Shown here: positions 24,623-60,069 of the stretch, piece by piece
How the letters are laid out: every line of letters starts with the position of its first letter
Numbering within the stretch: position 1 is the first letter of the stretch
NCBI RefSeq assembly: GCF_000614545.1
Contig: NZ_BAKW01000001.1
Location: 1-64,000, forward strand
DNA: 64,000 nucleotides
Source: Asaia platycodi JCM 25414
GTDB lineage: Bacteria > Pseudomonadota > Alphaproteobacteria > Acetobacterales > Acetobacteraceae
Reading direction: 5' to 3'
Program-made: the position numbers and the translations under genes
Notes under the pieces: generated by a model
What the model saw: only the letters and a program-made list of their open reading frames with translations
Told to the model about the DNA's origin: nothing
Databases searched by the model: none

Positions 24623-26052
24623 TCAAGTACCGCAGAAGGTCGCGTAAACGATCTGCTCAGGCGATGGAGGCATTTCGTAGGCGGCATCGTCTTCAAAGGG
24701 TTGCTGCAGGCGCTGCAGAAGAGCCTCGAAAACCGTGAAATTCCCTGTTTCGGCGGCGGCGATGGCTTCGGCAACGCGGTGATTGCGGGCAATCACGGCC
24801 GGGTTGCTGCTGCGCATAAGGGCTTCCTGCGTTTCCGCGGCAACGGGTTCCAGAGCGCGACGTGCCTTCCACTCAGTCATCCAGCGCTCAAGCGCTTCGG
24901 AAGGCGGCGCTGCAATCAGCGGTTCGCTTCTGGCGAGACGACGGAAGCTGAGTGTCCAGTCCAGCGCGTCGTTTTCCATCACCTGCAGCAGGGCCTCAAC
25001 CAGCGCCCTGTCCTGCTTCTCAGGCGTGGTCAAACCCAGCTTGGGGCGCATTCGAGCCAGCCAGGCCTCCTCATGGAGGCTTTGAAAGCGGCTGATCGCC
25101 TCTCGCGCCCAGGCAAGCGCGCGGTCTTCGTCCGGGTCGAAAAAGGCAGAAGCGTCTCTGCCAGGCGGGCGAGGTTCCATCCGGCCAGACGCGGCTGGTT
25201 GCCATAGGCATAGCGTCCGTTGCGATCGATCGAGCTGAACACCTTGTCATGGCGATAGGTGTCGAGAAAGGCACAGGGGCCGTAATCGATGGTCTCGCCC
25301 GACAACGTCATGTTGTCCGTATTCATTACCCCATGCACGAAGCCGAGGCTCATCCAGTGCGCGACGAGCCGGGCCTGCCTCGCCACGACTGTCTCATAAA
25401 GTGCTCGCACCGGGTTTTCGGCCTCACGCGCCTCAGGTACGTGACGGTCGATGGCAAGATCACAAAGAAAAGCCAGCGCCTCGCGATCTTCGCGCGCTGC
25501 AAAATACTGGAACGTGCCGACCCGCAGATGGCTCGCAGCGACACGTGTCAGAATAGCGCCGGGTTGTGGGCGGTCGCGCCAGATCGTCTCGCCGGTCGTG
25601 ACAGCGGCGAGCGCACGCGTGGTGGGCACGCCGAGTGCTGACATGGCTTCGCTCACCAGATATTCGCGCAGCACCGGGCCGAGTGCCGCCAATCCGTCGC
25701 CGCGTCGCGAAAAGGGGGTCGGCCCCGATCCCTTGAGTTGCACGTCGCGCAGCTGACCGCGGTCGTCGGTCACAATTCCGAGAAGATGGGCGCGTCCATC
25801 ACCGAGCTGCGGCACGAACTGACCGAATTGGTGCCCGGCATAAGCCTGTGCCAATGCAGGCACCCCATCGATACGGGCCTGTCCGCTCAGCAGGGCGATG
25901 CCCTCGGGAGATTTCAGCCATTCGGGTGAGAAACCGAGCGTTTCTGCCAGGGGGGCATTCAGGGCTACGAGGCGCGGGGCCGCGAAAGAGGCAGGGTTCA
26001 CCTCGACAGCCATGGAAGCCGGAAAAGGCGCGCGGCGGAGGGGAAGATGCAT
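24623..26052 (-). CDS. selO: Protein adenylyltransferase SelO (YdiU family; frameshift)
   Basis: Pseudokinase that transfers AMP to Ser/Thr/Tyr of target proteins, linked to redox stress. Family motifs are present: [58 protein letters not shown] and [20 protein letters not shown], the last being the metal-binding/catalytic stretch. Near 25140 a T is apparently missing from a run, after which [17 protein letters not shown] restores the frame. The C-terminus ends VYATFCGT; the conserved SelO terminal Cys appears as FCGT. Start 26052 ([14 protein letters not shown]) has AGAGG upstream; earlier in-frame starts add a non-conserved leader. About 477 residues. Confidence 0.92.
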
Positions 26053-26224
26053 GATACCTCTTGGGTGCAGGCCGAACAGGGCGGTCAGAAAAGCAAAATG
26101 GACGCTCTCGTTACTCAGAGATAACGTCCGCCCGCCGAGCCGCAAGATCAGGCCTGTCAGAAAGCAGGCAAGTTTTTTTGCCCTTTCCCTTTCCATTTCG
26201 GGGCCGGACGTCCAAAACCCCTTC

Positions 26225-27600
26225 ATGTCGAAACACCCCTCAGCCGCCAGACGGATTGCCCATAATGTCAGCTTCCTGACATTGGGGCGTATCGCGACGG
26301 CGCTTTGCAGTTTCGCCTATATCGCTTTTGCGGTGCGGGCGCTGGGGCTGGGCCAGTTCGGTCTGCTGATCCTGATCCATTCTCTCGGTATCATGGCATC
26401 GACCTTTTCGCGCATGCAGTCATGGCAGACGCTCATCCGGTTCGGTAACGAGCCCTATGCCCGCCGTGATCTGGACCTGCTGCGTCAGATCCTGGGGTTC
26501 TGCATAAGGCTCGACCTGCTTTCGGCAGTCGTTGCTGTGTCGATAGGGGTAATCAGCGTTGCGCTTTACAGCCACATTGCGCAGTGGACCCCTTGGGTCA
26601 CGTCGCTGGCCTATGGCTATGCGCTGATCAGTCCGTTCATGTACACGGGTTGGAGCAACGGGGTTCTGCGTCTGACAGATCGTTTCCACCTCGTGCCGAT
26701 CAGCGATACGGCGACGGCCATTTTCCGCACGGCGGGCACGGCGCTGGGTTTTGCTCTGCACCTCAATCTCGGGTTTTTTGTGCTGATCTGGGCTGGGGCG
26801 GTATTGCTCGATTACGGGCTGTTCCTGTTTTTTGCTCTCACGACCTTGCGTCGGAAAATCGGGCTGCGTTTGCGCTGGCGAGACGTCCTGACCCAGTGGC
26901 GCTGGCAATCGCCGGGAATGTGGGCTTTCACGCGCTCGACCAGCATCAACCAGACGCTCGGGGCGGTTTCGGGCCATATCAGCACGCTGGTCGTCGGCTC
27001 GCTTCTTGGGTCCGCCGAGCTGCGGTGTTTCGCATCTGCCGGCAGATTGCCGATGGTATCGTCACGCCAGCCCAGATGTTGTCGCCCGTGCTTTATCCCG
27101 AGCTGGTCAAGATGCGTGACCGTCAGGACTGGCGGGGCCTCAAGCGCCTGACCTGGAAGATCTTCGCCATGCTCTGTGGCGTTTCAGTGGCGCTTCTGCT
27201 CGTCTCGGCCTTTTTCGGCGGGCGCATCTTTGCGCTCATGCTGCATATCCATTTGCATGGCACCACCTATTACATCTCGATCATGCTGGTCTCGGCGGTG
27301 CTGACCCTGCTCATCGTCCCGCTTGAGCCGCTGCTGACAGTCATGGGGCAGATCGGCTTTCTGATGGCCAACCGTACCTGGATCACACTCGCCTATTTTC
27401 CGGTGCTTTACGGTCTGACGGCGACGTGGTCGCTCAAGGGAGCCTGCTACGCGACCGTGTTCAGCAGTTTCATCATGTTCGTCACACGGCTCTGGCGCGC
27501 GATAATCTGCTCGCTGCGCCCGGCAAAAGACGCCCCCAGAGCCCCAGCCGTCGAACAGACTGGCGCGCCGTCCGAAAGCGAGCTTCCCGCCGAGGCCTGA
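26225..27600 (+). CDS. Polysaccharide flippase, Wzx/MATE-like membrane protein (frameshift)
   Basis: Inner-membrane protein with about 12 helices, of the oligosaccharide flippase (PST/Wzx) family that moves lipid-linked glycans across the membrane. The N-terminus is typical: [34 protein letters not shown]. Near 27021 one base is lost; the protein continues [15 protein letters not shown] with [16 protein letters not shown] and later [20 protein letters not shown]. Rejoined length is about 459 residues. It is divergent from selO and convergent on the hydrogenase-like cluster, and no glycosyltransferases adjoin it. Confidence 0.85.
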
Positions 27601-27610
27601 TTTTTCGGCC

Positions 27611-28999
27611 CTATTGCTCTGCCCCGCCCGGATCGAACCCCAGAGACGTCAGAACGAGCCTGTCTTCCCAGCGATCATGCATGAGCGACGGCAGAACAGA
27701 GAGGGTGCTCAGCGCCGGATCGCGCAGCATGATGCCGTCGAGGCGGGATTCCTTGAGCCTCACCCAGCACCACAGATCGCCATGCGGCCCTTCGGCGGCG
27801 CCAATGCCCTCACCCGAGCCGGTCGGGACGGGCGGCGGCATGGGCAGGGGGGCGCCAAATTGCGTTGCGATACGGTCGATGCGGCGCAGGGCGTCGCGTA
27901 TTTCATCAAGGCGCAGGCACTGGCGCGCCCAGCCATCTCCGGCAAGGCGCGAACCGGCGCGACCAGGCACATGGCGCATGTCGTCCTCAAGCTGGCGCAG
28001 ATCGAATGAGCGTCCCGAGGCGCGACCGATCAGTCCACCAAGACAAAAGCGCTCGGCCGTCGAGGCCGTGATGACACCAAGCCCTTCGAGCACCTCTGCC
28101 ATCTGGTCATGCAATCCCTCCAGAACCGGCAGACGTGGCATCAATGCGTCATGAACCGCATGGGCCAGCGTGCAGATATCGATTCCGGCAGCGATCCCGT
28201 CTGGTGCGATCGCATCGATCAGTCGTCGCGAGGCGCCGTGCTGGGCACAGAGTGCGGCACAGAGATCTTCGGCAAGGGCGGCATGGGTGGCGAGAAGCGC
28301 AAACCCGGTCAGACGGGCCATCTGCGCGATATCGCGACAATGCACGGCAACACGTTCGACTTCAGCCAGAAGCGTACGGGCATCGCGCACGGCGTCTGAG
28401 GGCACGAGCCCCAGCGCCTGTTCGACAGCGCGCGAATAGGCCAGAGGCGCGGCCACAAAGCCTGCCGAGACGCTGCGCCCGATCAGACGCAATGCCTCTT
28501 CTGGCTTGCTGCCCTGGAGCTGTTGCATGAGTCCGATATGCGCCACCCCCGGTGTGATCTGTCTGCTGCCCCAGGTGAAAGGCGTCATGTCGGCATGGAG
28601 TGCCTCACGAAAACCGGCATCGGGCGGGGCATGATCTGAAGAAACGGAGCGTTGCGACAGTGGCGAGACACTTGCCCAGCCGCCGTGATCGAGTGCCGGT
28701 TCGGTATCGGCGGCCCCCAGAGGCAGGCAGCCCCAGAGATCCTGTGCGATGCGCTCTGGCCATGAGGCGGCTGGTACCGAGGCAGAGAGGGCGAAATACC
28801 GCCCATCTATGAGCGGCGTACTGGCCATGAGCGGCGTTTCCTGATCCAGAAACAGCGCATAGGCGCGGCAGTCATCGCACCAATGCGCGATGAACCAGCC
28901 CGGTATGGCCTCGATCATGGAGCGCCATTGTGGCTCGTCCAGCGCGTAGTGATAGGGCGCAAGACGGTCGCCTCGCCTTATATGCTGCGCCATGCTCAT
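27611..28999 (-). CDS. HyfG/NuoCD-like large subunit lacking nickel ligands
   Basis: Homologue of the [NiFe] hydrogenase-4 / complex I large subunit. The N-terminal third is a NuoC-like domain; the large-subunit part begins near TPFTWGSRQITPGVAHIGLM. RTLLAEVERVAVHCRDIAQM matches the LAELERIxNHxxDL stretch, and HGDLWCWVRLKESRLDGIML then RDPAL match the end of the family. The two nickel-binding cysteine pairs are gone: the first reads RSVSAGFVAAP and the C-terminal DPCxxC reads DPGGAEQ. It cannot be an active hydrogenase; it resembles Ehr (energy-converting hydrogenase-related) subunits. Start 28999 overlaps the upstream stop as ATGA. The frame is intact over 462 residues. Confidence 0.78.
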   Translation of the reverse strand: MSMAQHIRRGDRLAPYHYALDEPQWRSMIEAIPGWFIAHWCDDCRAYALFLDQETPLMASTPLIDGRYFALSASVPAASWPERIAQDLWGCLPLGAADTEPALDHGGWASVSPLSQRSVSSDHAPPDAGFREALHADMTPFTWGSRQITPGVAHIGLMQQLQGSKPEEALRLIGRSVSAGFVAAPLAYSRAVEQALGLVPSDAVRDARTLLAEVERVAVHCRDIAQMARLTGFALLATHAALAEDLCAALCAQHGASRRLIDAIAPDGIAAGIDICTLAHAVHDALMPRLPVLEGLHDQMAEVLEGLGVITASTAERFCLGGLIGRASGRSFDLRQLEDDMRHVPGRAGSRLAGDGWARQCLRLDEIRDALRRIDRIATQFGAPLPMPPPVPTGSGEGIGAAEGPHGDLWCWVRLKESRLDGIMLRDPALSTLSVLPSLMHDRWEDRLVLTSLGFDPGGAEQ

Positions 29000-30112
29000 G
29001 GGGCTCTCCAATACAGAGCCCAGACAGAGTCAGGCAGGGTCATGAGAAAAGGCGAGGCCAGCCCCAGAGCGAGCAGCTCCCAGAACGGCCCTGTCCTGCC
29101 AAGTTGCAGGCAGGATCAGGCCCAGACGCGCGCGGCTCGCCATCAGGCCAAGGCCAGAAGGCATAGCGCGGCTGGAATTGCGCCGATTGTCGCCAGCCCG
29201 GCCACGATGCCGAAACCGGCTGCGAAGCCCGGCCAGGGCGGCAGGCTGCCAAAAATCCAGAAACGAGCAGATCTGTCGATCGCCGGAGCGGTAGCCAGAG
29301 CCAGTCCACTACTCAGAAGAAGCAGCGCCGGTACAACGCCATGGGGCAGGGCGGCAGCAAGAATTGCCAGCGCCACCATCGGGCGGGGATTGTCCTGTCG
29401 GGTCAGTACGCAAAACCAGAGCCCGGCCAGACCGGCGAGAATCAGCACCATATGGGTAATGTCGCGTTCGGGCAGCCGAAGCATCAGTGTGACGACACTC
29501 AGACAGAGGAGCATGTCCAGAAGAGCCGTGCCCTGCCCTTCCGTTGTGTCATGGGCGTATGTCGTCAGGGGGGGGCCGAGACCGGCCATGAGGCACAATC
29601 CGACAGAAAGAAACAGGTCGCCGAGGCGGAGCGTGGCGGGGTCAGGGGTCAATGTCGTCAGGCTCGTGCCGAGCAGGGCCAGAACCACCCCCGCAAGCCG
29701 CAGGCGCATCGACTCCCAGGCCTGTTTTGCGCGCGGCGTGACCAGGGTTCGCGCAGCGCGAGAATCAGCGTGCCGCTGGCGGTCAGGCATGTGACGGGCA
29801 GCAGCGTATGCACGCTGAGGGCCAGCATGATCGCGGAACTCGCCAGAAAACTGAGACAGAGGCAAGGCGTTTTTCGCGCGCCTGCCAGGAGAGAAAAGGC
29901 ACACAGCCAGCCAGAAGACAGGCCCAGCGCGCCAGAATATCCTGCCCGGAGAGAAAAGGGTCCAGTATGGCAGTCAGCACGAGCCCTGCCATCGCGAAGA
30001 GCCGAGCGGAACGCCCGGCCTGCGCCTCGGGCATGAGGGCGATAAGGCAGGCTGCCAGAAGCGGCCATGTCGGAACCAGAAATCTGGCAATCTGGTGCAG
30101 GGTCTCAGCCAT
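28996..30112 (-). CDS. HyfF-like (NuoN/antiporter-type) membrane subunit, shortened (several frameshifts)
   Basis: Highly hydrophobic protein related to the hydrogenase-4 F / complex I antiporter subunits. It starts MAETLHQIARFLVPTWPLLA and ends MTLPDSVWALYWRAP. The segment GLGPPLTTYAHDTTEGQG matches the family's KxGLAPxHxWLPDAHxEAP loop, but with the lysine, histidine and tryptophan changed. At about 370 residues it is much shorter than E. coli HyfF. At least four indels break it (near 29850, 29740, 29145, 29110); the overlaps at both ends (8 bases with the E-like gene, ATGA with the G-like gene) show the boundaries. Inferred from position and the one aligned loop; details are tentative because of the indels. 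Confidence 0.62.
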
Positions 30113-30658
30113 TGCGCGGCCCTTCCAGACGGAGCCAGGCGAGTCTCGGCATCAGCCAGCCTCCCAGAGCAAGCAAGCCGACCCAGACAAGCGCCGCCCC
30201 CAGAAGGAGGGGCCAGCTTCCGCTATAGCCGCCGAGCAGCAGCAGGCCGTTCAGCGCACAGAGTAACCCGACCAGCTGGAGCAGCGGCACTGGCAAGGCG
30301 GCGGCGCAGAGTCCCGAAAGAACGATACCGATACAGATCAGCACTGGCAGACCCGGTGTGGCGGCGAGCGCTGTGAGTAGCAGGAGCCCGATAGCGGCGC
30401 ACAGCGCAAGCCTGTAGCCTGTTGGGTGGCGCGCCGCTCGCGGAGATCGCCCGATCGCCAGGCAACATGGGCGCGCAGCACGATCCATCCTGCGCCATTG
30501 AGCACGGGGAGCAGGATGAGCGTGGCCATGGCAGGCGCGCCATGGCCAATGACCGACACGCAGGCGGCGGCACAGGTGCCGTGAAAAGGCAGGATACGTC
30601 CGTCACGCCCGATCGCACCGAGAGCGATCAGCAGGGCAAGGCCAAGCAATACGGTCAT
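30105..30658 (-). CDS. HyfE-like (NuoK-type) membrane subunit (frameshift)
   Basis: Hydrophobic 184-residue protein related to hydrogenase-4 component E, which contains the NuoK-like helices of proton channels. It starts MTVLLGLALLIALGAIGRDG; the frame is broken near 30415, after RERRATQQATG, and resumes YRLALCAAIGLLLL. The C-terminal helix pair PLLQLVGLLCALNGLLLL corresponds to the family's QxxGxLxxENG, with leucine in place of the conserved glutamate. Start overlaps the upstream HyfC-like stop (ATGA at 30658) and its stop overlaps the next start, so it is translationally coupled on both sides. Confidence 0.68.
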
Positions 30659-31563
30659 GCCGCCAATCTCCCCGCAAGAACGAGCAGGATTGCCGCCCCG
30701 CTCAGGACCAGAGCGAGGCGAGCCGCAGGCATAGGCCGGCAGGCGCGCCATCCTGCTGCCAGTGTCACCATCAGGGCCAGCTTGGCAGGCGCTGCGATAC
30801 ACCAGAGCACGATCAATGTGCCCAAAGGGCGTGTCCCCGCTGCAATGGAATCCGGCCATACCAGATCGGCAATCAGCAGATACCAGCAACAGGCAGAAAG
30901 ATCGTGGCTGTAGCGCAGCAGGGCGCGGTGGCGACCCTCAGCCGAGGCGATCAGTTCCTCATGCCAGCTATCGGACAGAAAGCGCCGGTTCAGCACCAGC
31001 AACAGGGCGGCTGCAATGAAAACCAGCCCGCCAATCAATGTCGGGGCCGGTTGCAGGAGCCGCTGTTGCAACAGGCCGACAAGCGTTCCGGCACCGGGAA
31101 GGCCAATGGTGATAAGTGTGCCTGTCAGGGCGAGTAGTGGCACCAGAAACAGCAAATCGCGCCCAAGCCTGCCCAGAGAAGCGCGCAGGCGCAGGGCGAT
31201 CAACCGGGTAGGCGGTTTTTGCAGGGCCTGTACCCAGGCGGGCATGCAGGAGAGGATCAATAGCACTCCGCAGGCGAGCGGCTCGGAGAGAAAACCGAAC
31301 AGCGATCGTGCATTGGCATAGGGAATGCCGGTCATGGCAAGAAAGACAGCGCACAGGCCAAGCCAGCACAGGGCAGGGACGGGGCGGCGCTGCGCCCAGC
31401 CACGGCGGATCTGGCTCCAGCGCCATCCGGGAGCGATGCCGCTGCACCCTGCGCCAAGACCCTGCAATCCCCGTTCGAGATCGGTCAGAAAAGGGGCGAT
31501 CACGGCGAGGCAGAGCATCTGGCCGAAGGTTACGGCCAGGGCAATGGCGAATAACCCGATCAT
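30655..31563 (-). CDS. HyfC-like (NuoH-type) membrane subunit
   Basis: Relative of the NuoH/HyfC subunit that forms the quinone-side membrane module. It begins MIGLFAIALAVTFGQMLCLA and has about eight hydrophobic helices in 302 residues. LTDLERGLQGLGAG is the counterpart of the basic/glutamine-rich RRLQxRxGP loop, and SWHEELIASAEGRHRALLRY matches the family's HExxxLEYSGRxLALL loop, including its glutamates. The frame is intact. Start 31563 overlaps the HyfB-like stop by ATGA; a longer in-frame extension to 31701 lies inside that gene and is not used. Confidence 0.78.
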   Translation of the reverse strand: MIGLFAIALAVTFGQMLCLAVIAPFLTDLERGLQGLGAGCSGIAPGWRWSQIRRGWAQRRPVPALCWLGLCAVFLAMTGIPYANARSLFGFLSEPLACGVLLILSCMPAWVQALQKPPTRLIALRLRASLGRLGRDLLFLVPLLALTGTLITIGLPGAGTLVGLLQQRLLQPAPTLIGGLVFIAAALLLVLNRRFLSDSWHEELIASAEGRHRALLRYSHDLSACCWYLLIADLVWPDSIAAGTRPLGTLIVLWCIAAPAKLALMVTLAAGWRACRPMPAARLALVLSGAAILLVLAGRLAA

Positions 31564-33008
31564 GCGGACCAGCCAAGCCAGACCAGAGCGGCGGCAAGCA
31601 GAAACAGCCAGAGAGACAATGTCTGGCGTGCCAAGGCAGAGCCAGCTCTGCGGGAGAGGGGTGTCCGGTTCCAGGAAGTCTCTGTCGTGAGATGATGCCA
31701 TCCGCCGCGCAGTGCATGCCAGCGTGCGCGCAGCAGGGCGAGAGTCCGCCTCGCCCCCCAGGGCAGGCGCAGCCTGAGTTCGGGCGATGGCCAGTTCGGC
31801 AAGGCGTTTGCCATCGACGGCAGATGGGTCATGACTGCGGGAATGATGAGCGCCGGGATCAGGAAAATCAGCGCCGGATACCAGAAGGCGCCATCCCCGC
31901 CTGCAACGGACCAGATCGGCCAGGTGCGCCAGATCTCCTGACCCGCCCCCGCCAGATCAAGCGCAGAAACATGCAGGAGACCAAGCAGCAGGCCCGGGCA
32001 TATCGACAGACAGAGGCCAAGGGTGAGCGCAGTCGCCAACCCGCGATGATGGAATGCGAAAGCCCCGGCCAGGGAACGCCAGGAGGCCAGCCAGCCTCGC
32101 ACCATCAGCACGCCGATCAGTAGGCTCAGCATCACGGCGCCCGCAGTCCAGGCGGGTGAAAGCCGCTGAGGCCGTTGACCACATGCAGTCCGAGCCAGAA
32201 AGGCAGGAACCCGGCCAGAGGCGGCAAAGGTGTCTGAAACAGAAAGGCCCTGCTGCCGAGCCCTTGCAGGGCCAGGGCAAGGATTGTCGCCTCACTGCCC
32301 GCCAGAGCCGTATCGGCCAGTCCGCCTTGCCTGGCGCAGAGGGTCAGCCCAAGCAACAGGAGCGGCCAGTAGTTCAGGGCCTTTTCGATGCGCAGGCAAA
32401 GACAGAGCGCCGCCCCCAGCAGAACGAGGCCGACCGGCCAGAAAGAGCCTTGCGCCTGCAGGAGTGATGGCACGAAAAGCGCATAGGCGAGGAGCGGCAT
32501 CTCCGCAAAGGCGGGCAGGGTTGCCAGACCTGCCGCAGGCGCGAGAAAGGAGAGCGCGGGGAAACCGGGCAGAATGGCGAGCGCGCACCCCGCTGGGGCG
32601 AGAAGACCCAGTCGCCAGGCTTGACGCGTTTGCCCGTCGCGGCTTGCCTTTGCGTGCTGGGCGGCCTCGGCCAGGCAGGGGAGAAAACAGAACAGGGCAA
32701 GCGCCGCGTCATGACAGAGAAGGCCAAGGCCGCCCAGTGCCTCACCTACCGGCCCCGGATGGCGACGAGGCGTGACGAGCGACAGGGTCCAGAGCACGAT
32801 CCAGCACGCGCTGAGCGGGTCAAGCACTATCGGACCAAGCCGGGATTCATGTGCCCCCAATGCACCCCAGCAGCCAGCGCGCCCTGAATTCCCAGCAAGG
32901 CCACGCGCAGCAAGGGCATGATCGGCCCGCAGCGCCAGGATGTCGCAAGGCGCAGCACGAGGCAGCTCAGCAGCAGGGCAAGGGGAAGAGCTGAAAACAG
33001 GGAGTCAT
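31560..33008 (-). CDS. HyfB-like (NuoL/antiporter-type) membrane subunit (several frameshifts)
   Basis: First gene of the cluster; a very hydrophobic protein related to hydrogenase-4 B / NuoL. It appears as separate frames that join cleanly: ATG at 33008 with one C missing from the following run (MTPLFSALPLALLLSC), a break near 32855 (GAHESRLGPIVLDPLSACW), and one near 32150 where HPxWTAGAVMLSLLIG restores a single chain. TPLPPLAGFLPFWLGL is the antiporter PPLxGFxxKW loop without its lysine. About 480 residues against some 670 in E. coli HyfB. I could not find the KSAQxPxHxWL motif of proton-pumping members. An ATG at 33016 is an alternative start. Confidence 0.62.
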
Positions 33009-33110: not shown

Positions 33111-33404
33111 TTATATTGTCGGTGACTGGCGATGGCGGTCCAGGTTTCCGGCGCGTTCAAGGGCCAGTTCGACCAGCTCGTTTTCGCTGTTACCCTGGGC
33201 TTGCGGGTCGTAGAAAACGAGTTCGAGTTCCGGCTCCATCTGGGTGCAGACCAGAAAACATCCGACAGCCTCGCTCAGATGAGCGGTGAAGCTTCTTATC
33301 TGGACGCTCGGAAGATGCGAGACCCAGATCTGGCGCTCCTGGGCGAAAGAGGTCAACAGATGCGGGTGATCGGCGAGATAGCGCTCGAACTCGGCACGGG
33401 TCAT
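33111..33404 (-). CDS. Conserved-looking small protein of unknown function
   Basis: A 97-residue soluble protein (MTRAEFERYLADHPHLLTSF). It has balanced charge, no signal peptide and no metal motif; residues VWVSHLP-like and SEAVGCFLVCTQMEPELELV suggest a mixed alpha/beta fold. The frame extends to 33464, but the ATG at 33404 fits a helix start and the extension runs into AT-rich, promoter-like DNA (a TATAAT on the minus strand near 33425-33430). It sits just upstream of the hydrogenase-like cluster on the same strand. No family recognised. Confidence 0.55.
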   Translation of the reverse strand: MTRAEFERYLADHPHLLTSFAQERQIWVSHLPSVQIRSFTAHLSEAVGCFLVCTQMEPELELVFYDPQAQGNSENELVELALERAGNLDRHRQSPTI

Positions 33405-33593
33405 GATAGATCCAGTTATCGGTAAAATTATAACTTGTATGACTGTTGATTTATATTGACACAAAAATGGTATTTCTTACCAATTCAACATTATTTTCTG
33501 GAAAGTTCTGTGGTTATTTCAGCGTGTAGGCTCCGCGTATAGGAGAGATGATACTAGGGGGCTGTGGCTGTTCCCCTCAATGCGCGCCAGTTC

Positions 33594-34437
33594 TCAAATC
33601 ATTTCGAGTGGGGTTTTGCGGTGTGGTGGTGCAAAACGCGCATCGAGACGCGCCTGATCTTCGTCACGCAGGACCAGATCGAGGGCGGCGATATTTTCGC
33701 ACATGTGAGCCCGGGAGCCAGCCTTGGGAATGGCGAGCAGGTTGGGCTGGCGAAGTGTCCAGGCAAGGGCGATCTGGCCGGGCTAGCGGGACCGCTGGAC
33801 GTTTCATGGTTTTTGGCGATATCGGCCAGAATATCGTCACCCAGCAGCGCGCCGCCCTGGCCAAGGGGTGAATAGGCAATGGAGACGATGCCTTCGGCTC
33901 TGTCATGCGCCAGCAGGTCGAATTCCACGCCGCGTGCTTCGAGATTGTACAGAATCTGATTAGCGGCACAGTCAGCGCCCAGTACGTCCAGTTCCTGCAT
34001 GTCTTCGGTATCGAAATTGGAAACACCCCAGCGACGGATCATACCCTGAGTTTGCAGATGGGTGAGCGCCTCGACCGTTTCCTCCAACGGAACGCCGCCG
34101 CGCCAGTGGAGCAAATAAAGATCGAGCCGATCCGTGCCGAGCCTGTCTAGAGAGGCTTCGCAACTGCGCAGGGTCTTTTCATAGCTGGCATTCGACGGGA
34201 GCACCTTGCTGATCAGGAAGACCTCGTCGCGTCGACCGCGTATAGCCTCACCGACGAGACGTTCGGAGCGACCGCTGCCGTACATTTCCGCCGTGTCGAT
34301 CACGCTGAGGCCGGCATCGAGTCCAGCCCGAAGACTGGCGATCTCCTCGCACGTGTCGCCGTTGAATCTCCGATATTCCAGCTTCCCATGCCCAATGCCG
34401 GAACGGACGTGCCGTCACGAAAACTGACCTTTTTCAT
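33594..34437 (-). CDS. Aldo/keto reductase (several frameshifts)
   Basis: NADPH-dependent (beta/alpha)8 barrel reductase of about 280 residues, of the prokaryotic AKR group close to 2,5-diketo-D-gluconate reductase-like enzymes. Start MKKVSFRDGTSVPALGMGSW has AAGGAAG upstream. The catalytic tetrad is visible: Asp and Tyr in VIDTAEMYGSG, Lys in FLISKV, His in YLLHWRGG. The cofactor segment near the C-terminus reads LLAIPKAGS. Frames break near 34370 and twice around 33795-33815; QIALAWTLRQPNL and ENIAALDLVLRDEDQ restore the family tail, ending at 33594. It faces the bicupin gene divergently. Confidence 0.88.
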
Positions 34438-34610
34438 GAAACTTCCTTTTCAATCTTCAGGCCGAAGCGTCAGATCTGGGTTTGCGTTCGATAAGGATGG
34501 CAAGTCGTTAATCACGAATACGTGAGAAGTGACTCCCTATGGACTGTGCGGCGTTAGGCTGGTCGCACGAGCTTTCGGGGCAGCTTCTGCTTTCAAAGAG
34601 GAGGCCGAAA

Positions 34611-35941: not shown

Positions 35942-38334
35942 ATGGCTATCTCAAAGAGGATCATGCGCCGGAATGGCTGGCTCGCCTGTCTCTATGCCAC
36001 GTTGCTGGCACTTCTTGGCGCGACCCTGATAGCAGGGGGGGCGATCCTCATTCAGGCAGGCGGTTCGTATTACTACCTCATTGCCGGGGTGATGATGCTT
36101 TCAAGTGCGGCCATGATCTGGCGGGCAGATCGGCGTGGCGCGGGGGTATACGCTGCGATGCTCGCGCTCACGCTTGCCTGGTCGATCTGGGAGGTCGGCG
36201 GACATGTCTGGCAACTCGTCCCGCGTCTGGTGGCGCCATGCGTGCTTGGTCTGGGGCTGTTCCTGCCAGGCGTCATGCCTGGACCGGCACGACACTCTTT
36301 GTGGGGCCTGTCTCGTTTTGGCCTGGTTCTGGTGGCCTTCGCACTATTCGGGGTTTTGTTGCATGTAACAGGTTCGAGCGCTCCACCAGATCCTGCCTGG
36401 CAGACGGGCAGCCCCATCGAGGCTCCCGGTCGTCTGGCGCAAGTAAAGTCAGAGGCGACTGACCAATGGCCAGTCTATGGTAACGATCAGGGCGGTTCAC
36501 GCTTCAGTCCGCTCGATCAGATCAATACCGGCAATGTAGGCAAGCTCGAAAAAATCTGGGAAGCCGACACCGGCCCCAGGCCGGATAATGCCTATACGGC
36601 GGGACTTGAAGTAACGCCGATCATGATCGGTGATAGTCTTTATATCTGCAATAATTATGATGCGGTCGTCGCGTATGACGCCGAGACGGGCAAGCGACGC
36701 TGGACGTTTCAGATGAGCGATTCCCGCTCCGGCAAGCCCTGCCGGGGCGTTACCTATTATCGCGTTCCCGGTGCAACAGGGCCCTGCGCGGAGCGTCTCT
36801 ATGCAGTCAGCCAGCTTCCCGATCTCGTGGCACTGGATGCGCATACGGGGCAGCTCTGTCACGATTTTGCGGTTGCGGGTCGCTATGATCTCAGACGGGG
36901 CATGAGTGCTGCGCCTTTTGGCATCTATTACGTCAGTTCTGCGCCCCAGCTCATACGTGGAAAGCTCGTCGTGGGGGGCAGCATTCTGGACAACCAGTTC
37001 TGGGGGGCACCGTCGGGCGTCGTGCGCGCCTTCGATGCCATTTCGGGCAAGCTTTCCTGGGCGTTCGATGTGGGTCATCCCGACCGCAAGGGGGAGCCGC
37101 CTCCGGGCCAGAGCTATACACGCTCGACGCCCAATAGCTGGGCGCCTCTCAGTGCCGATGAGAAGCTCGGTCTCGTCTATCTGCCTATGGGCAATTCGAC
37201 GCCCGATCTTTATGGCGCGCAGCGTCGCTCCTTCGACGACGAGAATAGCAGCGCTGTGATCGCGATCGATGCTGAGACAGGCACCCCGCGCTGGAAATTT
37301 CAGACGACCCATCATGATTTGTGGGATTACGATATTCCTTCGCAGCCGAGCCTTGCCAATATACCTACCGCGAAAGGGCTGAGGGCCGGGCTGATCATGC
37401 CGACCAAACGCGGTGAGATCTTCGTGCTCGACCGCGCCACGGGCGAGCCGATCAGGGAGGTACGCGAGTTGGCTGTGCCTCAGGGTGGCGGCGGCCCCGG
37501 TGACCGGCTGTCGGCGACCCAGCCGTTTTCGGTCGCGATGCCATCGTTTCGTGGCGCCACGCTGCGAGAGCGCGACATGTGGGGGCTGACGCCTATCGAC
37601 CAGATGTTCTGTCGCATCAGGTTCAGACAGGCGCGCTATGAAGGCCCCCTGACACCTATCGGTCTCGATCGACCGACCATCGTGCATCCGGGTTATGGCG
37701 GCGGGGTCAATTGGGGGAGCGTTTCTCTCGATCCCGAGCGCGGCATCATGGTTGTGCCATGGATGAACCTGCCGACACGGTCGCAGCTCATTCCGCGCGA
37801 GCAGGCCAATCGGATTGGCAATGTGCTCGGGCCGACACATGGTCCGGTCAACACCCAAAATCCCATGGCAAACACGCCCTATGGTGCGATCAACGGGCCT
37901 TTTCAGTCTTTTCTCGGCGTGCCCTGCACATCGCCGCCTTACGGCTCTCTGGCTGCCGTCGATCTTCACACTGGGCGGCTGATCTGGACAAAGCCGTTCG
38001 GCACGAGCGCCGATACGGGACCACTTGGGTTTCACACGCATGTTCCTCTACCATGGGTGTGCCTTTTTCAGGCGGGGGCATCACGACGCGCGGCGGTCTG
38101 ATTTTCATCGCGGCGTCGATGGAGCAGGCTATCCGTGCCTATGACCTGTTCAATGGCAAGGAGTTGTGGAAAGTCCGCCTCCCTGCCGGAGGGCAGGCGA
38201 CGCCCATGACCTATCGGGCGCCGCATAGCGGTCGACAGATCGTGGTCATTGCCACAGGGGGCAAGCCAACGCTCAAGACAACACAAGGTGCGCGGCTCGT
38301 TGCCTATGCGTTGCCGAAAGAATTCTCCCGCTAA
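35942..38334 (+). CDS. Membrane-bound PQQ-dependent dehydrogenase, glucose/quinate/shikimate family (frameshift)
   Basis: Periplasm-facing quinoprotein that oxidises a sugar, polyol or cyclitol and passes electrons to ubiquinone. Five N-terminal membrane helices (residues about 12-135) precede the eight-bladed propeller, which begins WPVYGNDQGGSRFSPLDQI. The catalytic-site region reads HHDLWDYDIPSQPSL, and PTKRGEIFVLDRATGEPI and GDRLSATQPFS follow. One base is missing near 38052; TMGVPFSGGGITTRGGLIFI continues the last blades to GQATPMTYRAPHS and LVAYALP. About 797 residues. It differs from E. coli-type Gcd around GYGGGVNWGS, where that enzyme has GMFEWGG, so it is likely a paralogue with another substrate. 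Followed 15 bases on by an exported cupin. Confidence 0.9.
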
Positions 38335-59427: not shown

Positions 59428-60069
59428 ATGACTTGGACTCTTACCTCCGCCGTTGGCGAACCCCGCCTGCAATCTCCCGAAGAACTGCTGATGCATGATG
59501 ATGTGCGTAGCAATCTCGTTGTGGGCAAGCTGCAGGATTTCATTTCGTGGGGGCAGAAGAATTCGGTCTGGCCGTTCAATTTCGGCCTGTCCTGCTGTTA
59601 CGTTGAAATGGCGACGGCCTTTACCAGCCGTTACGACATCGCCCGCTTCGGTTCCGAAGTGCTGCGCGCCACGCCGCGTGAGGCCGACCTGATCGTGATT
59701 GCGGGTACGGTGTTCCGCAAGATGGCGCCCATCGTGAAGTATCTCTACGACCAGATGCTCGAGCCGCGTTGGGTCATTTCCATGGGCTCCTGTGCCAATT
59801 CGGGCGGCATGTATGACATTTACAGCGTCGTGCAGGGTGTCGACAGCTTCCTTCCGGTCGATGTGTATGTGCCAGGCTGCCCGCCGCGCCCCGACGCGCT
59901 GCTCGAAGGGCTGATGCTTCTTCAGGATTCCATCGGCAAGCAGCGTCGCCCGCTCAGCTGGATGGTGGGCGATCAGGGTGTGACCAAGGTGACCCCGGCC
60001 AGCATGCGCGACCTCAAGCGCGAGGAGCGCATGGCGGTTACCAAGCTGCGCACCCCGGATACGATCTGA
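59428..60069 (+). CDS. nuoB: NADH-quinone oxidoreductase subunit B
   Basis: Peripheral subunit carrying the N2 [4Fe-4S] cluster next to the quinone site. 213 residues; the cluster cysteines are in [22 protein letters not shown] and [33 protein letters not shown] is the usual linker. The frame is intact. 13 bases separate it from nuoCD. Confidence 0.97.

Follow-up and report, generated by a model that had tools for sequence, protein, structure and literature searches.

Within a 64,000-nucleotide stretch of the Asaia platycodi JCM 25414 genome (contig NZ_BAKW01000001.1, positions 1 to 64,000; hereafter the window), five overlapping minus-strand genes at about 33.0-27.6 kb encode diverged HyfB, HyfC, HyfE, HyfF and HyfG proteins. 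We consider it probable that this block represents five of the six subunits of an Ehr (energy-converting hydrogenase-related) complex, that the sixth is the iron-sulfur (Fe-S) protein HyfI, encoded elsewhere in the genome, and that the six form a membrane electron-transfer device predicted neither to handle hydrogen nor to pump protons in the canonical way. We are confident of this anatomy; the function as a non-pumping electron relay, read from sequence motifs, is a tentative proposal on the lower side of even, and what we infer about donor, acceptor and function likewise comes from sequence. The initial annotation had described a cluster with no electron-input subunit, reduced to its membrane arm plus a non-catalytic large subunit. 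The large subunit is as described, since no NiFe-type CxxC pair is found in any of 32 HyfG sequences; the rest needs revision, because hyfI lies elsewhere in the genome and co-occurs with the block in all Asaia-group genomes examined (9/9 Asaia, Swaminathania, Kozakia), a finding which that annotation had itself named as refuting it. Judged by motifs, the reduction is in the proton-channel motifs of the membrane subunits, and the redox subunit HyfI is intact.

Among 60 relatives searched with PF01058, all nine Asaia genomes and Swaminathania (G016) have a second NuoB/HyfI-type gene besides the complex-I nuoB. This orphan HyfI is 160 amino acids (aa) long and, in the window's own genome, is encoded on another contig (G000:C32:52198-52677; the window is contig C35). 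In the single-contig Asaia G006 (3198265 bases), hyfI lies at 873754 and is separated from hyfG, at 2755863, by 1.9 Mb, or by 1.3 Mb if the contig is taken as a circle; the corresponding positions are 2051403 and 186117 in Kozakia (G030, one 2.9-Mb contig), and 230380 and 2012050 in G078 (2.2-Mb contig). In all nine Asaia, Swaminathania, Kozakia and the genus g71 (G078, G157), hyfI is the first gene of a hyfI-nrtR-nadABC array (for example, L078:4361-9234, L080:8755-13714 and L105:4321-9244). The gene that follows hyfI was assigned by its matches to PF21906, the winged-helix domain of NrtR (E 6.3e-25), and to the NCBIfam NrtR repressor model (E 1.7e-15, below the cut-off of that model). The two genes overlap by 4 bases in L075, L077, L078, L081, L092 and L105, and by 11 in L106 (the loci where the overlap was read; the nrtR start is ambiguous elsewhere), so hyfI expression probably follows that of the nrtR-nadABC operon.

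In several other genera hyfI lies close to hyfG. In Neoasaia (G033) and G111 the order is hyfG, one opposite-strand gene, hyfI, then nrtR, with hyfI 0.9 kb after hyfG in Neoasaia; in Entomobacter (G021) hyfI shares 4 bases with the end of hyfG; among the other loci read, those of g79, g86, g125 and several more also have hyfI directly after hyfG, and in g57 the two are about 1-4 kb apart. Since hyfI is found with hyfG or in its operon across these other genera, the operon-borne gene is likely ancestral, and the orphan gene of Asaia the result of a relocation. We also observed that the intervening gene of Neoasaia and G111, of about 260 aa, is conserved (L030:10311-11093 (-), L092:9770-10648 (-)) and adjoins hyfI in several Asaia and in Kozakia as well; that in g57, g86 and g125, as far as their loci were read, nadABC is convergent with, and adjoins, the hyf operon; and that in G069 hyfI stands alone beside an obgE-like GTPase gene (named by eye; L091:7559-8053 (+)), a separate relocation.

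The initial annotation had left it as a question whether a hyfI homologue ever accompanies the block in other Acetobacteraceae. In a sample of 299 genomes of the family (excluding G007 and G008; co-occurrence counted by eye), 255 have a HyfG match at E<=1e-40, and all but four of them (251) also have HyfI at E<=1e-22. Nine further genomes with weak HyfG matches (1e-40 to 1e-20) include three with HyfI; among the 35 genomes with no HyfG match there is one with HyfI (G017), G061 narrowly misses the cut-off (1.2e-22), and the other best matches of the HyfI search are weaker and presumably nuoB. HyfI is present in all 60 genomes of a subset picked from the HyfG/HyfI matches.

The sequences of the two proteins are consistent with HyfI joining the HyfBCEFG complex. 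In a HyfI tree of 39 rows (rooted at the midpoint; the long rows G078, G021, G072, G069 and G102 are unsure), orphan HyfI forms one group (98/99) with the HyfI of Neoasaia, G111 and Kozakia; NuoB falls on a separate branch (100/100). Pairwise p-distances of HyfG and HyfI are correlated (0.893, 32 genomes; 0/2000 permutations). In the 17 genomes of a set controlled with NadA, the correlation is 0.960 for HyfG-HyfI, 0.887 for HyfG-NadA and 0.886 for HyfI-NadA, and the HyfG-HyfI partial correlation with NadA removed is 0.811 (0/2000 permutations). All four cluster cysteines (CxxC, C, CP) are kept in 28/28 HyfI sequences of acetic acid bacteria. HyfI aligns with HycG (E 8.5e-26) gaplessly at the motif, from which we predict that its cluster is a closed four-cysteine relay. 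The window also encodes a complex-I NuoB (59593-59919 (+), about 27 kb from the block), with adjacent cysteines and GCPP; its branch in the tree is distinct from that of six other NuoB, of which three belong to the same family.

The five genes of the block were read from the sequence with the intact locus of A. siamensis (L021) as a guide, where all five are single open frames (Table 1). Their order, strand and 4-8 base overlaps, and with these the tight coupling stressed in the initial annotation, are borne out: hyfB/C, C/E, E/F and F/G overlap by 4, 4, 8 and 4 bases. Conservation of the block among relatives is well above chance. HyfB, HyfC, HyfE and HyfF of the block have no relevant Pfam match, so HyfB, HyfC and HyfF were named by profile-profile comparison with canonical clusters and by gene order; HyfF against canonical HyfF scores 27.9% without the Entomobacter row and 78.3% with it, and no cross pair tested exceeds 1%.

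The membrane subunits have lost the motifs of the canonical proton channels. In a canonical Acetobacteraceae cluster (L034), PF00361 is found in HyfB (E 3.8e-44) and HyfF (E 1.6e-42), and PF00146 in HyfC (E 3.8e-33); such matches were found in none of the proteins of acetic acid bacteria tested (HyfB 0/9, HyfC 0/7, HyfF 0/6). HyfB and HyfF of these bacteria are also shorter (medians 479 and 384 aa; canonical, 636 and 485 aa), and the aligned columns of the Glu in transmembrane segment (TM) 5, of KAGLxPLHxWLPxAH in TM7, and of the HxxxHxxxK helix (TMH11 in HycC numbering) are replaced or gapped. The TM7 pattern K.G..PxH is present in 9/9 HyfB and 8/9 HyfF of canonical clusters, and in 0/19 HyfB and 1/19 HyfF of acetic acid bacteria, the sole match being C-terminal and without the His; HxxxHxxx[KR] is present in 9/9 and 6/9 canonical sequences, and in 1/19 and 0/19 here, the lone HyfB match lying in a hydrophilic stretch. 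A loose TM5 Glu pattern is still matched in 3/19 HyfB and 5/19 HyfF. The E-channel motif RxPxD of HyfC is kept in 9/9 canonical sequences and 0/16 from acetic acid bacteria. In the Escherichia coli formate hydrogenlyase (FHL), the E-channel includes HycD Glu189, Glu130 and Glu138, and TMH11 carries His328/His332/Lys336 (PMC9474812); by alignment, Glu130 and Glu189 are replaced, and Glu138 is Asp in most Asaia rows.

The large subunit is changed as well. The one CxxC seen in HyfG is that of the window's own protein, at index 39 in the N-terminal domain. The beta1-beta2 loop, which holds the proton donor in FHL and complex I (PMC9474812), falls short of its length in L034 by 10-15 residues in 11 of 28 rows from acetic acid bacteria, all of the Asaia-Neoasaia group, and by 7 residues in G078; in the Asaia group, HyfG thus has little of this substrate loop left.

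These features suggest a mechanism. By analogy with HycG on HycE, HyfI would dock on HyfG; HyfC, with the degenerate HyfB, HyfE and HyfF, would hold the HyfG-HyfI pair at the membrane; and electrons would travel, by way of the HyfI cluster, between a soluble partner and an acceptor that is bound to or embedded in the membrane. The single four-cysteine cluster argues for a relay, not an open catalytic site like that of the membrane-bound sulfane-sulfur reductase (MBS), and one relay cluster together with the absence of any recognisable proton channel favours single-cluster electron transfer without canonical pumping. The split would have arisen by a rearrangement that probably parted hyfBCEFG from hyfI-nrtR, the two having been together in the ancestor. 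Going further, this may be a branch of the complex-I superfamily stripped of its hydrogen, quinone and proton-pumping sites into a pure one-cluster relay, with the redox subunit under a regulator of nicotinamide adenine dinucleotide (NAD) synthesis and an activity set by NAD state; this idea is possible, and on present evidence doubtful.

We also considered whether the block is simply decaying, its broken frames and lost motifs marking a pseudogene cluster. Compared with A. siamensis, the window copies of hyfB, hyfE and hyfF have deletions of 1-2 bases that break their frames, and the motif losses could be read in the same way. However, similar deletions break the adjacent aldo/keto-reductase and SelO (24623-26226) genes, no in-frame stop was found in any window gene compared with A. 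siamensis, and intact copies exist in relatives; in addition, an intact HyfB of 466 aa (P0138, 9 member sequences) is 96.8% and 100% identical to the two main pieces in the window (71.8% to one short frameshifted piece). The ratios of nonsynonymous to synonymous substitution (dN/dS) between the window and A. siamensis are 0.146 (hyfB), 0.091 (hyfC), 0.096 (hyfE), 0.178 (hyfF) and 0.067 (hyfG), against 0.081, 0.122 and 0.142 for three control genes; this comparison, one of the checks proposed in the initial annotation, points to purifying selection. Among Asaia species the median pairwise values are 0.247, 0.206, 0.101, 0.230 and 0.117 for the five genes, 0.087 for hyfI, 0.023 for nadA and 0.060 for nrtR, all rough because median dS is >1, and HyfB, HyfC and HyfF evolve faster than HyfE, HyfG and HyfI. 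Because neighbours are also hit, a near-identical intact hyfB exists and dN/dS is 0.07-0.18, the frameshifts look like assembly errors in functional genes, and decay is scarcely credible. The window assembly is error-rich; frames resembling a quinoprotein dehydrogenase at 35942-38334 appear similarly broken, by appearance.

Several observations weigh against the electron-relay reading, and some of them favour an Ehr ion pump that has rebuilt its proton path with different residues and still couples electron flow through HyfI to ion movement. Predicted TM cores of HyfB and HyfF retain acidic residues (median 2 in each), and proton movement by other residues may be compatible with the motif loss; even HycC of FHL has no TM7 Lys (the residue there is Leu208) and lacks some other canonical residues (PMC9474812). 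In addition, gene complement and order are those of the canonical Acetobacteraceae clusters (B-C-space for E-F-G-I), and Ehr complexes are suspected to pump (PMC6349859). Against such a pump, K.G..PxH, HxxxHxxx[KR] and RxPxD are kept in most or all canonical sequences and near-absent here, and HyfB, HyfC and HyfF are the faster-evolving subunits; we consider it unlikely. The identities of HyfB, HyfE and HyfF come from gene order and weak profile-profile scores, and the AlphaFold models are poor (mean predicted local distance difference test scores, pLDDT, of 49 and 53). Four genomes with a strong HyfG match (G063, G101, G239, G297) have no HyfI match that reaches the threshold; in G297 the hyfG match stops 64 bases from a contig end, on the side where hyfI is expected. 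We infer HyfI-HyfG binding and complex formation from sequence, and neither a donor nor an acceptor of electrons, nor a second Fe-S subunit, was found, none of these having been sought systematically.

The position of hyfI raises another alternative, in which HyfI no longer partners HyfBCEFG and serves NAD synthesis (for example, by supplying electrons to, or protecting, the NadA cluster), leaving HyfBCEFG as a scaffold without electron input, one of the roles suggested in the initial annotation. That hyfI heads hyfI-nrtR-nadABC in four genera, and lies within 10 kb of nadA in 25/60 genomes and 7/20 genera, fits such a role. Yet the correlation of HyfI with HyfG distances persists once NadA is controlled for, the block has hyfI with it in Neoasaia, in G111 and in the single-operon genera, and three of the 60 genomes keep both HyfI and HyfG where NadA was not found, which makes this alternative quite improbable and also counts against an obligate NAD link. 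Given these three genomes and the few independent events (shared ancestry), the NAD link is likely regulatory, if functional at all. The three (G306, G072, G303) have no NadA match though listed as 100% complete; quinolinate synthesis is seemingly lost and the hyf complex kept. The tie by gene order to an NrtR-like regulator gene, and the invariant cluster ligands in a complex with no recognisable catalytic or substrate site, would also suit a membrane-bound redox or oxygen sensor, in which the membrane subunits, or a partner, would report the state of the HyfI cluster and there would be no sustained turnover. No partner for signalling was found, a weak counter-point because the neighbourhoods were searched with reference genes only; on balance we hold a sensor to be rather improbable and prefer the electron relay.

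Ehr complexes are relatives of group 4 hydrogenases that lack the Ni-Fe ligands and are suspected of coupling redox reactions to ion translocation (PMC6349859). In Geobacter all Ehr subunits were more abundant on formate than under hydrogen-containing conditions, their role being left uninvestigated in that study (PMC7894505). The genome paper of Asaia bogorensis lists one nuo operon and ndh (PMC4596401), and no description of the complex in acetic acid bacteria was found in a search covering part of the literature, mostly by listing. Canonical Ehr clusters of other Acetobacteraceae (such as L034) share with the Asaia system the order B-C-(space for E)-F-G-I (E was not searched there), a large subunit without NiFe cysteines, a small subunit with CxxC, C and CP ligands, and membrane subunits that are antiporter-like by homology; the Asaia system differs in having hyfI in trans, shorter HyfB and HyfF without antiporter motifs, HyfC without the E-channel motif, and HyfG without most of the beta1-beta2 loop.

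Among solved structures, the best matches are in the E. coli Hydrogenase-3 FHL (7z0s, 7z0t): HycE for HyfG, HycG for HyfI, and HycD as the sole match of HyfC; a low-confidence HyfB model ranks HycC first. Unlike FHL and Hydrogenase-4 (NiFe group 4a), HyfG lacks the NiFe-ligating L1 and L2 CxxC motifs; ferredoxin subunits of the HycB/HycF type and formate dehydrogenase were not noticed beside the block, where no systematic search was made. MBS of Pyrococcus is likewise a complex-I relative in which residues of the quinone site and the proton donor are gone from the large subunit, which depends on the cluster of the small subunit; in contrast, MBS retains its pumps, and its open-site cluster has three cysteines and a CxxC motif three residues shorter (PMC7684303). 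MbsJ (6u8y_J) is a weaker match to HyfI (E 1.1e-14; score only). Complex I, whose NuoB, NuoD and NuoH are also encoded in the window, is related at the superfamily level; NuoB has adjacent cysteines (CC) where HyfI has CxxC, the two are split in the tree, and the quinone-site beta1-beta2 loop of NuoD is shortened in Asaia-Neoasaia HyfG.

The window's genome (G000) is 85.9% complete in 35 contigs, and its nearest relative is A. siamensis (HyfG 92-93% identical). As the initial annotation had noted, no hyfI is seen beside the block, and the next gene is convergent and flippase-like (weak NCBIfam WZX_like match, E 6.8e-05, below the cut-off of that model).

Table 1. Genes of the hyf block and its upstream neighbours in the window.
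Feature	Position	Strand	Remarks
hyfB-like, diverged antiporter-like subunit	31560..32958	-	frame broken by 1-base deletions in assembly; hhalign to canonical HyfB 81.8%, E 1.3e-6
hyfB start	GTG at 32958	-	taken from P0138; earlier start possible
hyfC-like, NuoH/HycD family membrane anchor	30655..31563	-	intact; hhalign to canonical HyfC 98.9%, E 1e-16; profile match to HycD 7z0s_D E 8.6e-5
hyfE-like	30105..30658	-	one 1-base deletion; named by position and homology within the acetic-acid-bacterial set only
hyfF-like, second antiporter-like subunit, diverged	28996..30112	-	four 1-2 base deletions; hhalign to canonical HyfF 28-78% by alignment used
hyfG-like, fused NuoC/NuoD-like large subunit	27611..28999	-	intact; PF00346 E 1.6e-06; HycE 7z0s_E E 3.5e-34 (profile including two more distant rows)
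aldo/keto-reductase gene, recurrent neighbour upstream of hyfB in acetic-acid-bacterial loci	33594..34438, ends approximate	-	frameshifted here
small open reading frame between aldo/keto reductase and hyfB in Asaia	33111..33464	-	99 aa in A. siamensis; no NCBIfam match

Which parts of complex I can go while selection keeps the whole is an open question, and here a single bacterial family holds a natural series that runs from canonical Ehr, which has the channel motifs, to the Asaia form, which lacks them; the Fe-S subunit is intact in the whole series. With this series, electron transfer might be separated experimentally from ion pumping, and it carries a caution: when such a cluster seems to have "missing" subunits, the rest of the genome should be searched for them.

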